64,000 bases of DNA from Caulobacter segnis (GTDB taxonomy: Bacteria > Pseudomonadota > Alphaproteobacteria > Caulobacterales > Caulobacteraceae): contig NZ_JARQWW010000002.1 in assembly GCF_029543125.1 (NCBI RefSeq), forward strand, positions 186,001 to 250,000. Reading direction: 5' to 3'. The first letter of the stretch is position 1. Each line of letters starts with the position of its first letter. The notes under the pieces were generated by a model. That model saw only the letters and a list, made by a program, of their open reading frames with translations. It had not been told where the DNA came from and did no database searches. Positions 31,457 through 36,135 of the stretch are shown one piece after another. The position numbers and the translations under genes are program-made.

Positions 31457-32203
31457 ATGACCGACCTCCTCGCTCTCGCCGCCGACCCGGCCGCCTGGGC
31501 CGCCCTCGTGACCCTCATCGTGATGGAGGTGGTCCTGGGCATCGACAACCTCATCTTCATCTCGATCCTATCGAACAAGCTGCCTGAGGCCAACCGCCAG
31601 AAGGTCCGCCGCCTTGGCATCGGGCTGGCCCTGGTGATGCGCCTGGGGCTCCTGACGACCATCGCCTGGATCGTCGGCCTGACCGCGCCGGCCTTCGCCA
31701 TCCTCGGCAACGAGTTCAGCTGGCGCGACATCATCCTGATCGCCGGCGGCCTGTTCCTGGTATGGAAGGCGACCAAGGAGATCCACCACACCGTCGACCC
31801 GGCTCCATCCGACGCGATCCTGGACAAGACCCCGGCCTCGGCGGCGGTGACCAACGTCGGCTCGGCGATCGTCCAGATCATCCTGCTGGACATCGTGTTC
31901 TCGATTGACTCGATCCTGACGGCCGTGGGCATGACCGAGCACCTGCCGGTGATGATGATCGCCGTGATCGTTGCGGTGGTGGTGATGCTGATCGCCGCGG
32001 ACCCGCTGGCGAACTTCATCAACAAGAACCCAACCGTGGTCATGCTGGCCCTCGGCTTCTTGCTGATGATCGGCATGGTGCTGATCGCCGACGGTTTCGG
32101 CTACCACGTGCCCAAGGGCTACATCTATGCGGCCATGGCCTTCTCGGCTGGGGTCGAGGCCCTGAACATGCTGGCCCGGCGAAAGCCGCCGCAGAAGCAC
32201 TGA
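31457..32203 (+). CDS. TerC-family integral membrane protein
   Basis: 248-residue membrane protein with about seven hydrophobic segments. The conserved acidic membrane motifs are [16 protein letters not shown] and [19 protein letters not shown], typical of the TerC/YgdQ group, linked with manganese or other metal export. The segment [14 protein letters not shown] is a cytoplasmic loop. The short C-terminal tail is basic. Monocistronic, followed by a good terminator. The 213-base gap upstream holds no other gene that I can see. Confidence 0.88.
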
Positions 32204-32211
32204 CGGACTTG

Positions 32212-32239
32212 AAGGGCGGGCCGCAAGGTCCGCCCTTTT
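32212..32239 (+). terminator. Rho-independent terminator after the TerC-family gene
   Basis: Eleven-base stem (32212-32222 with 32227-32237, one G-T pair), GCAA tetraloop, ending in TTTT. It lies between convergent genes and could also serve priA on the other strand. Confidence 0.8.
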
Positions 32240-32248
32240 CCGTTGCGC

Positions 32249-34411
32249 CTACAGGAAGCTGTAGGGATCCACGTCGATAGTCATCCGCACGGCGTTGGGC
32301 GGCTTGGCCCGCGCCTTCCAGGTCGACAGATAACCCTGAAGATCGATGTTTCGGTCGGCGCGGACCAGCAGGCGCTTGCGCCGGCGGCCGCGGATCAGGC
32401 TGAGCGGCGCGTCGGCCGGGCCGAACACCTCAACCCCTTCCGCATTGGGCGCGGCGGCGGCCAGGGCGCGGGCATAGGCCTCAAGCGCCGGGGCGTTCTC
32501 GCTGGACAGGACGATGGCCGCCAGACGGCCGTAGGGCGGCAGGCCGGCGATCTCCCGCGCCGCCATCTCGGCGTCGATGAAGGCTTCGCGGTCCTGGGCG
32601 GCCAGGGCCTGCATCACCGGATGCTCGGGGGCGTAGGTCTGCAGCATGGCGCGGCCCGGTTTGTCGTGCCGCCCGGCGCGGCCGGCGGCCTGGGCCAGAA
32701 GCTGGAAGGTCCGCTCCCCCGCCCGCAGGTCGCCGCCGCGCAGGCCGAGGTCGGCGTCCACCACCCCCACCAGAGTCAGGTTCGGGAAGTTGTGCCCCTT
32801 GGCCGCCGCCTGGGTGGCCACGAGGATGTCGATCTCCCCCTGGGCCATGCTCTCCACCAAGGCCCGGGCGCCGGCGGCGTCGAACACGGTGTCCGAGGAG
32901 AAGACCGCCACGCGGGCGTCAGGGAACAGGCTCTGCGCCTCCTCTTGCACCCGCTCCACCCCCGGGCCGATGGAGACCAGGCTGTCCTTGGCCCCACAGT
33001 GCGGACAGGTGTCCGGCTTCTTCATGGAGAAGCCGGTGAGGTGGCAGACGAGACGGCCAGTGTAGCGATGCTCCACCAGCCAGCTGTCAGTGTCCGGCGC
33101 GGTCATCCGCTCGCCGCAGGCGCGGCACAGGACGAGCGGCGCGTAACCCCGGCGGTTCAGGAACAGCAGGGATTGCTCGCCCCGCGCCAGGGTCTCGCCC
33201 ATGGCGCGGACCAGCGGCGGCGACAGCCAGCGGTCCCGCTCCGGCGGCGTCTGGCGCAGGTCGATCAGGGACACGTCCGGCAGGCGCGCCGCGCCGTGCC
33301 GCTCCGACAGGCGCAGCCAGCGGTAACGGCCGGCCTGAGCGTTCCACAGGGTCTCCATGGAGGGGGTGGCGGAGGCGAGCACCACCAGCGCGCCCTCCAA
33401 CTTGGCCCGGGCCACGGCCAGGTCGCGGGCCTGGTAGATGAAGCCCTCATCCTGCTTGTAGGAGCCGTCGTGCTCCTCATCGACCACGATCATCCGCAGC
33501 TTCTTGAACGGCAGGAACAGGGCCGAACGGGCGCCGATGGCGATGCGGGCGGAGCCGGCGGCCACCGCCTCCCAGGTCCGGCGGCGGCGCGGCGGGGTGA
33601 TGGCGCTGTGCCATTCGCAGGGCGGCGCGCCGAAGCGGGCCTCGAAGCGGGCTATCACCGCCTGGGTCAGGGCGATCTCCGGCAGCAGGATCAGAATTTG
33701 CGCATCAGGCTCCTCAGCCAGGGCGCGGGCCACGGCCTCAAGATAAACCTCGGTCTTGCCCGAGCCCGTCACGCCATCCAACAGGGCCGACTGGAAGCCG
33801 CCTGCGCTGAACAGGTCGCCCAGCGCCTTGGCTGAGGCGGCCTGGCTGGGATTGAGCTGGGCGGCCGGCAGGGTCAGGTCGGGCGGCGGCGGGTTCAGGT
33901 GCGTCTCGATCAGCCGCACCTCCAGAACACCCTCGTCCACCATCCCCTTCACCACGCCGGCGGACACGCCGGCTTCAACGGCCAGGGCCGCGCCCGGCAT
34001 CTGGCGCTCGCCGATGGTCTCCAGGACCTTGGTGCGGGCGGGGGTGGCGCGCGCCGGCGCCTTGCCGGTGGCGACGACCAGGCGCTCCGGCTTGGGCGCT
34101 GGCGCCCGCAGGCCGCGCAGGGCGATGGCGAGCGGCCAGCCCGGAGCGTCGACCGAGTAACGCGCGGCCCACTGCACGAAGGCTAAGGTGCCTGGCGGAA
34201 GGGGCGGCCCCTCCAACTTCTCGGCCACGCTTTTCAGAGGGCGATTCATCCCCGAACCGTCACGCAGGTCGGTGACGACACCATGCATCAGACGCGGTCC
34301 GAGCGGCGCGGCGACGTGATCGCCGACGGCCAGATCCATGCCTTCGGGCTCGAAATAATCGAACGCCTCGGGCAGCGGCATGGGCAGGAGAATGGAGGCG
34401 ACGCGCGGCAT
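32249..34411 (-). CDS. priA: PriA, primosomal helicase, with a degenerate second zinc site
   Basis: 720-residue superfamily 2 helicase that restarts stalled replication forks. The 3' DNA-binding domain begins MPRVASILLPMPLPEAFDYF. Walker A is LDGVTGSGKTEVYL, the DEAH-like box is VVDEEHD, and motif V/VI lie in VATQAAAKGHNFPN and AQAAGRAGR. The zinc-binding insert normally has eight Cys. Here the outer four are kept (Cys429, 432, 469, 472), but three of the inner four are replaced (Ala438, Thr441, Thr459; Cys456 remains). The frame is intact and the protein is otherwise normal. Divergent from the DUF484-xerC pair. Confidence 0.95.
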   Translation of the reverse strand: MPRVASILLPMPLPEAFDYFEPEGMDLAVGDHVAAPLGPRLMHGVVTDLRDGSGMNRPLKSVAEKLEGPPLPPGTLAFVQWAARYSVDAPGWPLAIALRGLRAPAPKPERLVVATGKAPARATPARTKVLETIGERQMPGAALAVEAGVSAGVVKGMVDEGVLEVRLIETHLNPPPPDLTLPAAQLNPSQAASAKALGDLFSAGGFQSALLDGVTGSGKTEVYLEAVARALAEEPDAQILILLPEIALTQAVIARFEARFGAPPCEWHSAITPPRRRRTWEAVAAGSARIAIGARSALFLPFKKLRMIVVDEEHDGSYKQDEGFIYQARDLAVARAKLEGALVVLASATPSMETLWNAQAGRYRWLRLSERHGAARLPDVSLIDLRQTPPERDRWLSPPLVRAMGETLARGEQSLLFLNRRGYAPLVLCRACGERMTAPDTDSWLVEHRYTGRLVCHLTGFSMKKPDTCPHCGAKDSLVSIGPGVERVQEEAQSLFPDARVAVFSSDTVFDAAGARALVESMAQGEIDILVATQAAAKGHNFPNLTLVGVVDADLGLRGGDLRAGERTFQLLAQAAGRAGRHDKPGRAMLQTYAPEHPVMQALAAQDREAFIDAEMAAREIAGLPPYGRLAAIVLSSENAPALEAYARALAAAAPNAEGVEVFGPADAPLSLIRGRRRKRLLVRADRNIDLQGYLSTWKARAKPPNAVRMTIDVDPYSFL

Positions 34412-34529
34412 GGTCGGCCTTCACATGGGGGATAAATCCCGCGCCGTCGAGGCCGTCTGTTTCATCGTCAAGCGCATGTTAACCGCGATGATCGATACAT
34501 GGTTGGGTTGTATTCCCAGTGAGGCGCAG

Positions 34530-35207
34530 ATGAGCGACGCGACGCGGGCCTATGCCCTTCCGGACCTCGAAGCAGAGATGGTGCGCGATTTCCTCCGCGC
34601 CGAACCCGGCTTCGTGCGCGACGACTTCGACCTTCTGAAGGATCTGGGTCTGCGCCTGGACGCCGCCAATCTGGTGGATTTCGGTCCCGCCGCCTTGGCC
34701 CGCGTCAGCGCCGCCCACAAGCGCGAAAGCACCGCCCGCCGCCAGCTGGAGGCCACGGCCCGCGCCAATTTCGCCGCCCAAGCCCAGACCCATGCGGCGG
34801 TGATCGACATCCTCGAAGCCCGCAATCATTCGGACCTCGCCGTCCGCATTGACGATCTGGCCATGAGCCGTTTCGGCCTGTCGGCCGGCGCCATCGCCCT
34901 GGAAGGTCCCGAGCGCGTGCCCGCCGGCTGGTTCCCGCTGGTGGAGAGCCAGGTGGACATGATCCTGGACGGCCGCGGCTGGCGCATGGGCTTCCATTTC
35001 CCGGCCCTGGCCCTGTTCGGCGACAAGGCCGAGCAGGTGCGCAGCATGGCCATGGTCCGCATGGGCCTGTGGGGCGACACCCGCCAAGCCATCCTCGCCT
35101 TCGGCTCGCCGGAGCACGACGGCTTCACCCCGGACATGGGCCCGGAGCTGGTCGCCTTCCTGGCCGAAGTGACCATGCGCACGGCGGAGCGATGGCCCGT
35201 TCTTTGA
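34530..35207 (+). CDS. DUF484 family protein
   Basis: 225-residue protein of the DUF484 family, a GAF-like cytoplasmic domain: a helical N terminus with VRDFLRAEPGFVRDDFDLL, an Arg-rich helix, then a domain ending in GDTRQAILAFGSPEHDGF and the FLAEVTMRTAERW tail typical of the family. DUF484 genes lie just upstream of xerC in many proteobacteria, as here (13-base gap). I use ATG 34530 (MSDATRAY) because GAGG is five bases before it; a frame open to 34380 is not needed. Function unknown; a link with XerC-dependent steps is inference from position. Confidence 0.85.
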   Translation: MSDATRAYALPDLEAEMVRDFLRAEPGFVRDDFDLLKDLGLRLDAANLVDFGPAALARVSAAHKRESTARRQLEATARANFAAQAQTHAAVIDILEARNHSDLAVRIDDLAMSRFGLSAGAIALEGPERVPAGWFPLVESQVDMILDGRGWRMGFHFPALALFGDKAEQVRSMAMVRMGLWGDTRQAILAFGSPEHDGFTPDMGPELVAFLAEVTMRTAERWPVL

Positions 35208-35220
35208 GCATAGGTGATCT

Positions 35221-36135
35221 GTGAATGCGCGGGAGGCCCTGGCCGCCTGGCTGGAGCACCTGACCCACGAGAAGCGCGCCTCGCCCCGCACCGTGCGGGC
35301 CTATGGCGACAACATCCTGGCCTATCTGAATTTCCTCGAGCGGCACCAAGGCGGCGCCCTGTCGCTGGCTGATCTGGGCAAGCTGAGCGCGGGGGACATC
35401 CGCGCCTATCTGGCCCACCGCCGGCAGGGGGAGCAGGCCCTGTCGCCGCGATCCCTGTCGCAGGTCCTGTCGTCCATCCGCACTTTTCACGGCTTCCTCG
35501 ACCGGCGCCTGGAGACGCCCAACGCCGCCATCGCCCTGGTGAAGGGGCCGAAAGTGGTTCCTGGCGCCCCGCGTCCCGTATCGGAAGACGCCGCGCGCGG
35601 CCTGATCACCGAGGTGTCCCTCGACCCGGATCGCGAGGACTGGGAGGTTCTGCGCGACGAGGCGGTGCTGACCCTGCTGTGGGGCTGCGGCCTGCGGATT
35701 TCAGAGGGACTGTCGCTGCTGCGCCGGGACGCGCCGCTGCCGTCCAGCCTGCGGATCACCGGCAAGGGCGGAAAGACGCGGCTGTCGCCGGTATTGCCCC
35801 AGGTGCGGGAGACGGTGGACGCCTATGTGGCCGCTCTGCCCTTCAACCTGTCGCCGGAAGAGCCGTTGTTCCGCGCCAAGCGCGGCGGGCCGTTGAGCCC
35901 GCGCCATGTGCAGGCGCTGATGCAGCGGCTGCGGGGCCGTCTGGGCCTGCCGGACAGCGCCACGCCACACGCCCTGCGCCACAGCTTCGCCACGCACCTG
36001 TTAGGCGCGGGCGCGGATCTTCGGGTCATTCAGGAACTGCTGGGCCACGCCTCGCTATCGACGACGCAGCGCTACACTCAGGTGGACGCCGCTGGCCTGC
36101 TGGCCGCCTACGGCAAGGCGCATCCGCGCGCCTAG
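35221..36135 (+). CDS. xerC: XerC, site-specific tyrosine recombinase
   Basis: 304-residue recombinase that, with XerD, resolves chromosome dimers at dif. The N-terminal SAM-like DNA-binding domain is followed by the catalytic domain. Catalytic residues appear as Arg in WGCGLRISEGL, Lys in TGKGGKTR, His and Arg in PHALRHSFATHLL, His in LLGHASL, and the nucleophile Tyr in TTQRYTQVD. Start is GTG 35221, as the nearby ATG is out of frame. The gene order DUF484-xerC supports XerC over XerD. Convergent with the small secreted-protein gene, sharing CTAG (36132-36135). Confidence 0.93.
   Translation: MNAREALAAWLEHLTHEKRASPRTVRAYGDNILAYLNFLERHQGGALSLADLGKLSAGDIRAYLAHRRQGEQALSPRSLSQVLSSIRTFHGFLDRRLETPNAAIALVKGPKVVPGAPRPVSEDAARGLITEVSLDPDREDWEVLRDEAVLTLLWGCGLRISEGLSLLRRDAPLPSSLRITGKGGKTRLSPVLPQVRETVDAYVAALPFNLSPEEPLFRAKRGGPLSPRHVQALMQRLRGRLGLPDSATPHALRHSFATHLLGAGADLRVIQELLGHASLSTTQRYTQVDAAGLLAAYGKAHPRA

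Follow-up and report, generated by a model that had tools for sequence, protein, structure and literature searches.

Probable protein-based replacement of the inner zinc site in the PriA helicase of Caulobacter and its relatives

The DNA analysed here, a stretch of 64,000 nucleotides from Caulobacter segnis (hereafter the window, to which all coordinates refer), encodes a PriA helicase in which three of the four ligands of one zinc site have been replaced. The locus raises the question of whether we are looking at an error, a decaying site or a different solution to the same structural problem, and of how widely the change is shared. For E. coli, PMC10175261 describes a Cys-rich region that pivots by ~85 degrees on fork binding, contributes both a pore for the lagging-strand DNA and a docking site for PriB, and carries a hairpin proposed to act as the unwinding wedge.

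The window protein and its zinc ligands

32249..34411, minus strand: priA, 720 aa, replication-restart helicase PriA (primosomal protein N')

Profile searches identify the gene product as PriA: it scores 1077.1 bits with NF004070 (cut-off 921) and 564.2 bits with TIGR00595 (cut-off 230.35), and its 3′ DNA-binding and C-terminal domains are recognized by PF17764 (49.9 bits, cut-off 22.7) and PF18074 (66.5 bits, cut-off 26.9), respectively. The SF2 helicase motifs TGSGKTE, DEEH and QxxGRAGR are all present. The fold is also that of PriA: the top structural matches of the AlphaFold model (mean pLDDT 89.7) are solved PriA chains, the best being 8fak_H (Z 35.0, rmsd 2.6, 625 residues), and the best 50 matches listed for each search, in two libraries, comprise PriA, Mfd, RecG and other SF2-type helicases, none of them specific to the Cys-rich region. 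The gene is the sole match in the genome above the PriA family cut-off; the four further matches all lie below it, which rules out another PriA copy with a full set of zinc ligands. Within positions 31457-36135, priA is flanked by a gene for a TerC-family membrane protein and a divergent DUF484 gene, beyond which lies a gene for a tyrosine recombinase (Pfam assignments).

The zinc ligands were located from the codons and by alignment (phmmer) to chains of 4nl4, 6dgd and 8fak, representing E. coli or Klebsiella PriA with two zinc ions. In the following, proteins that have lost the inner site are termed site-less and those with the full complement eight-Cys.

33116..33127, minus strand: outer zinc knuckle 1, Cys429-x2-Cys432, intact by its codons; Cys at both positions in 107/107 site-less and 183/183 eight-Cys proteins compared
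33089..33100, minus strand: lost inner knuckle 1, Ala438-Pro-Asp-Thr441 replacing Cys-x2-Cys, from the ungapped alignment to solved PriA chains
33035..33046, minus strand: lost inner knuckle 2, Cys456-His-Leu-Thr459, Cys456 alone being kept (codons and alignment)
32996..33007, minus strand: outer zinc knuckle 2, Cys469-x2-Cys472, intact by its codons; all four outer Cys in 106/106 different site-less proteins
33125-33127, minus strand: codon of Cys429, TGC
33116-33118, minus strand: codon of Cys432, TGC
33098-33100, minus strand: codon of Ala438, GCG
33089-33091, minus strand: codon of Thr441, ACT
33044-33046, minus strand: codon of Cys456, TGC
33035-33037, minus strand: codon of Thr459, ACC
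33005-33007, minus strand: codon of Cys469, TGT
32996-32998, minus strand: codon of Cys472, TGT

The outer C4 site, formed by Cys429, Cys432, Cys469 and Cys472, is kept in its entirety; at the inner C4 site, Ala438, Thr441 and Thr459 occupy ligand positions and Cys456 is the sole remaining ligand, as an earlier note on this DNA had described. Across the whole stretch spanned by the eight Cys positions, the alignments to 4nl4, 6dgd and 8fak run without a gap and, therefore, the residue register of that note is right; its contention that no frameshift is involved likewise holds, the codons reading cleanly on the minus strand. A frameshift or read error is ruled out in practice, as like substitutions occur in 105 other PriA proteins with different core sequences. 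The Pfam PriA zinc-ribbon model, PF18319, matches the window protein with only 11.1 bits (E=0.41; cut-off 26).

Distribution and history of the inner-site loss

Were most PriA proteins to lack the three Cys, a possibility raised in the earlier note, the window protein would be nothing unusual; our sample does not bear this out. In this sample, which was drawn by relatedness and family with low-scoring and unrepresented families favoured, such that its counts are not prevalences, all eight Cys are present in 283 of 395 PriA entries, the inner site is lost in 109 and one inner Cys is missing in 3. Four entries duplicate the core sequence of another, and the 391 different core sequences divide into 282 eight-Cys proteins, 106 site-less proteins and 3 single-Cys losses. 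The eight-Cys label denotes a spacing-tolerant motif: judged by aligned columns, 277 of the 282 different proteins likewise have Cys at all eight, and the other 5 fall short. For the window's order, 149 of 150 genomes gave a match, and 70 of these were read in addition to the window's own genome (30 returned loci, plus 40 places that were chosen); in the class sample, 281 of 288 genomes matched, the part read consisting of the returned loci and chosen family representatives; and a further set of 100 genomes, 98 of them with a match, contributed its returned loci and 40 chosen places. In all, 405 of 411 loci were mapped, those left out being four below-cut-off matches, one truncated PriA and one DciA locus.

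Within the window's order, every one of the 71 sequences read is site-less. The same holds for 11/187 sequences from the remaining orders of the class and for 27/80 named relatives, these being the best 80 of 262; the phylum's other classes keep the inner site in 57/57 genomes from 24 families. Counted by coded family, the site-less state is found in 5/5 within the order, 3/149 elsewhere in the class and 0/24 in other classes of the phylum, and none of the 178 families is mixed in this respect. The named relatives, again among the best 80 of 262, assign the site-less lineage to Caulobacter, Phenylobacterium, Brevundimonas, Maricaulis, Oceanicaulis, Robiginitomaculum and the Parvularculaceae. 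The three site-less families of the same class that lie outside the order are uniform in the sequences read (f82, 4/4; f105, 4/4; f4, 3/3), the fifth genome of f82 having given no PriA match; the remaining 146 coded families of the class comprise 143 that keep the inner site and 3 without one inner Cys. Inner-site loss is not confined to the window's genome; all of the order's sequences that were read show it, as do three more families.

The single losses differ in kind. In L173 (genome G034) and L235 (G116), the first inner Cys alone is lost (Arg438 or Gly438) and the other seven are kept, whereas L252 (G078) combines a long insertion within the Cys-rich hairpin with an exchange of one inner Cys for Asp (Asp441). 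Separately, five genomes that are 96-100% complete (G369, G115, G129, G160 and G244) gave no PriA match at E 1e-20, which may reflect either gaps in the assemblies or true absence of the gene. One of them, G369, comes from the order of the window, and PriA is present in G218, a member of the same genus as G129.

The residues that took the place of the inner ligands are drawn from a narrow set. In 109/109 site-less entries, position 438 is Ser, Ala or Thr, position 441 is Thr, Ser, Ala or Val, and position 459 is Thr or Ser; the three replaced ligands are, therefore, always small in the proteins read, and only rarely Val. Position 456 is Cys in 106 entries and Asp in 3. The latter are the f4 proteins (L166, L269 and L273, from genomes G002, G213 and G124), the only site-less ones read without Cys456: they carry Ser438, Ser441, Asp456 and Thr459, such that all four inner ligands are gone and, with the last Cys having given way to Asp, even Cys456 is dispensable. 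These data are most naturally read as a one-zinc PriA, as suggested in the earlier note, and this reading gains strength from the fixed loss in 109/395 entries and from Asp456 of f4; the zinc count itself is deduced from sequence. An all-Ser inner form (Ser438, Ser441 and Ser459) occurs in four entries, from f82 and f105, and, since Ser, Thr and Ala predominate elsewhere, this suggests a likely path in which Cys would first have been exchanged for Ser, and Ser later for Thr or Ala.

As to the number of losses, a tree of 63 PriA proteins, calculated with the Cys-rich columns removed, groups the order's 18 rows in a single clade (97, starred), which is adjoined by the nine rows of f82, f105 and f4; together, the 27 site-less rows make up one side of a branch, equivalent to one change, although the support for this branch is only 21. 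An earlier tree of 82 rows requires four changes of the site-less label, of which its starred branches force only one, with three outside rows not firmly placed. One ancient loss of the inner site is the simplest reading of these trees, not proven, the single origin resting on the support-21 branch; presumably, the inner zinc was replaced once or a few times.

Conservation of the inner region and a candidate protein clip

One alternative is relaxed constraint, with the inner site and hairpin decaying because helicase activity is no longer needed. Single inner Cys losses do occur (3/395), and the PriA of Deinococcus radiodurans is a pseudohelicase without the residues on which ATP hydrolysis and unwinding critically depend (PMC4504706). 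However, the inner region is more conserved, not less, in the site-less lineage: the 107 site-less sequences have a mean column entropy of 0.88 over residues 433-468 and of 1.14 over the compared core as a whole, and the 183 eight-Cys alphaproteobacterial sequences one of 1.85 and 1.65, respectively. Both sets were de-duplicated by sequence, and the latter leaves out L173 and L235, in which Cys438 is missing. Likewise, when inner non-ligand identity (433-468 minus the four ligand positions) is set against identity elsewhere in PriA, the difference is +0.06 for the site-less sequences and −0.10 for the eight-Cys sequences, or about −0.07 for eight-Cys clusters of similar depth. The sub-clusters listed, which are nested and do not constitute independent tests, are all at or above zero for site-less proteins (two at zero) and all negative for eight-Cys proteins. 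Moreover, the ATP-binding and helicase motif residues are invariant or nearly so in a 42-row alignment that includes 23 site-less proteins. By these measures, the inner region is not decaying, its non-ligand residues being more constrained than the rest of PriA; decay was rejected on the identity values, and we consider relaxed constraint very unlikely.

Of the 30 most clade-specific core positions, 14 fall in the short Cys-rich inner region. The parts of a proposed replacement for the metal, together with the hairpin, are as follows:

33086..33094, minus strand: Asp440-Thr-Asp442, acidic part of a proposed staple (residue conservation)
33017..33025, minus strand: Met463-Lys-Lys465, hydrophobic and basic part of the proposed staple (residue conservation)
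33047..33049, minus strand: Val455, fixed hydrophobic residue at the hairpin foot (Val/Ile455 in 107/109 site-less versus 41/190 eight-Cys alphaproteobacterial entries)
33044..33082, minus strand: predicted β-hairpin Trp444-Cys456 (strands 446-448 and 453-455), between the lost inner knuckles (secondary structure of model mc58617c3b859)

An acidic residue at 440 or 442 is present in 108/109 site-less entries, as against 45/190 eight-Cys alphaproteobacterial and 28/93 other eight-Cys entries. The corresponding figures for the site-less and eight-Cys alphaproteobacterial entries are 108/109 versus 41/190 for Met/Ile463, 105/109 versus 18/190 for Lys/Arg465, 108/109 versus 73/190 for Ser/Thr462, and 102/109 versus 50/190 for Tyr/Phe450. 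The combination of the acid at 440/442 with Lys/Arg465 occurs in 104/109 site-less, 1/190 eight-Cys alphaproteobacterial and 0/93 eight-Cys entries from outside the class (101/106, 1/190 and 0/92 after de-duplication). The staple is not invariable, since four of the 109 site-less entries have Met465 and one lacks the acid at 440/442. The one eight-Cys alphaproteobacterial protein with both residues, L395 (G468), has FSMPRP after the second knuckle, an acid at 442 and an intact zinc site; the pair is, therefore, compatible with zinc. The replacement residues are shared by descent and their co-occurrence is close to a single event: it is strong evidence of a conserved set, but weak evidence of co-variation that has recurred.

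Modelling, as proposed in the earlier note, retains the hairpin, with strands at 446-448 and 453-455 and block means of pLDDT between 74 and 88 over 431-470. A control model of an eight-Cys protein (L031) has a hairpin in the matching place, and its block values of 81-92 place the confidence of the window model somewhat below that of the control in the Cys-rich region. The window model has one extra strand, at 462-464, for which the control offers no matching strand of at least three residues. Equated by position, the predicted Trp444-Cys456 hairpin would be the strand-separation wedge. We suppose that the inner zinc normally clips together two strands at the base of this wedge. In the site-less proteins, the clip would be provided instead by the acid at 440/442 in the first loop facing Lys/Arg465 in the second, with packing help from Val455, Met/Ile463 and the aromatic residue at 450, and Ser or Thr side-chains at the old ligand positions could add to it. 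The resulting PriA would bind one zinc ion per monomer and retain both the hairpin and the outer ribbon. The exchange of three inner Cys for tightly conserved residues suggests, at the level of sequence, a protein-only substitute for the metal clip.

The same residues could, alternatively, belong to an inner site that still binds metal through changed ligands, for example, Cys or Asp456, His448, His457 and the acid at 440/442. Asp can serve as a metal ligand, position 456 is always Cys (106) or Asp (3), His448 and His457 are present in 109/109 site-less entries, and the acid is missing from only one of them. However, the two histidines are already found in 187/190 and 188/190 eight-Cys alphaproteobacterial proteins, respectively, and were, therefore, not gained for a new site; moreover, the acid does not occupy one fixed position, and the replaced positions carry Ser, Thr or Ala, all poor zinc ligands. 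An altered metal site seems quite improbable to us. A further possibility is that the inner ribbon has become a docking surface for a lineage-specific partner, such as DciA, SSB or another restart factor, in which case the conserved residues would form an interface rather than a core. The fixed residues do include some of surface type (Lys465, Asp440/Asp442 and Tyr450), and conservation in the region is above the average for the protein, but Val455, Met463 and Ser462, which are small hydrophobic or polar residues, are fixed as well. Furthermore, the eight-Cys alphaproteobacteria, which to our knowledge also lack E. coli-type restart partners, show no such change. The Cys-rich region of E. coli PriA does serve as a docking platform (PMC10175261); nevertheless, we hold this explanation to be unlikely.

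Returning to the protein clip, we conclude that the window protein is probably a lineage-fixed, one-zinc variant of PriA with a protein-based replacement of the second zinc. Taken as a whole, the explanation that we prefer, in which the gene is the ordinary chromosomal priA of a lineage that would manage without the inner (second) structural zinc and use protein contacts instead, appears fairly likely.

Restart partners and comparison with known systems

The window's genome has no match to PriB (TIGR04418) or PriC (PF07445), and DciA was found in it; use of the E. coli primosome is, therefore, unlikely, and the one-zinc PriA would work in restart with a DnaB loader of the DciA type, without PriB or PriC. 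As the earlier note suggests, a one-zinc PriA may assemble differently. The docking residues for PriB on E. coli PriA are Asp438, Ser481, Thr482 and His483 (PMC10175261). Judged by residue numbers, these residues would adjoin the Cys of the outer site, which is intact in the window protein. The authors of a study on Caulobacter DciA suggest a possible joint action of DciA and PriA at forks (PMC9825169). A more far-reaching proposal is that exchange of the zinc clip has created a metal-free, tunable hinge: the acid-lysine staple would alter the swing of the Cys-rich region or the melting of DNA by the hairpin, such that DnaB could be handed to the fork by a DciA-dependent route closed to two-zinc PriA. 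We offer this tentatively and think it rather unlikely.

The window protein shares with the PriA of E. coli and Klebsiella the same domains and fold, the outer C4 site and the equivalents of Cys456 and His457, and it differs from them in the replacement of three of the four inner ligands and in the lack of a PriB or PriC match in its genome. The PriA of D. radiodurans likewise represents a lineage-wide departure from the E. coli blueprint, although there it is the catalytic residues that have been lost, whereas the window's lineage keeps its ATPase and helicase residues and has lost a zinc site instead. Replacement of a structural metal site in a small conserved domain is also seen in the zinc-free (C-minus) variants of ribosomal zinc-ribbon proteins. 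Such variants frequently exist as additional paralogues that serve when zinc is scarce, whereas the site-less PriA is the sole PriA in the window's genome. Many Caulobacterales are oligotrophs, and a general sparing of zinc, with PriA as one of many proteins to lose a structural zinc, would suit such a lineage; however, the outer site of the very same protein is kept throughout (106/106 different site-less proteins), and we regard this explanation as extremely improbable.

PriA itself is well known; as far as the titles and abstract openings returned by our literature search go, none deals with zinc-site loss in the PriA of the Caulobacter branch, and the form without the inner site is, to that extent, new. 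Its interest lies in the observation that every genome read from one bacterial order, Caulobacter species included, manages with one of the two zinc sites; this amounts to a natural experiment on the role of the inner zinc, and on which residues can stand in for a structural metal where a DNA helicase moves. Close counterparts for comparison are eight-Cys alphaproteobacterial proteins such as L031 (from a Rhodospirillaceae MAG) and L033 (from a Devosia MAG), which are 50% and 49% identical to the window protein, respectively. Their hairpin sequences are closely similar to its own (WLVEH...L.CH), and that of L031 is modelled in the matching place, whereas they keep all eight Cys and belong to a group in which the inner non-ligand positions vary more than the rest. 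With site-less and eight-Cys alphaproteobacterial PriA proteins ~50% identical, domain swaps between them, therefore, look practical.
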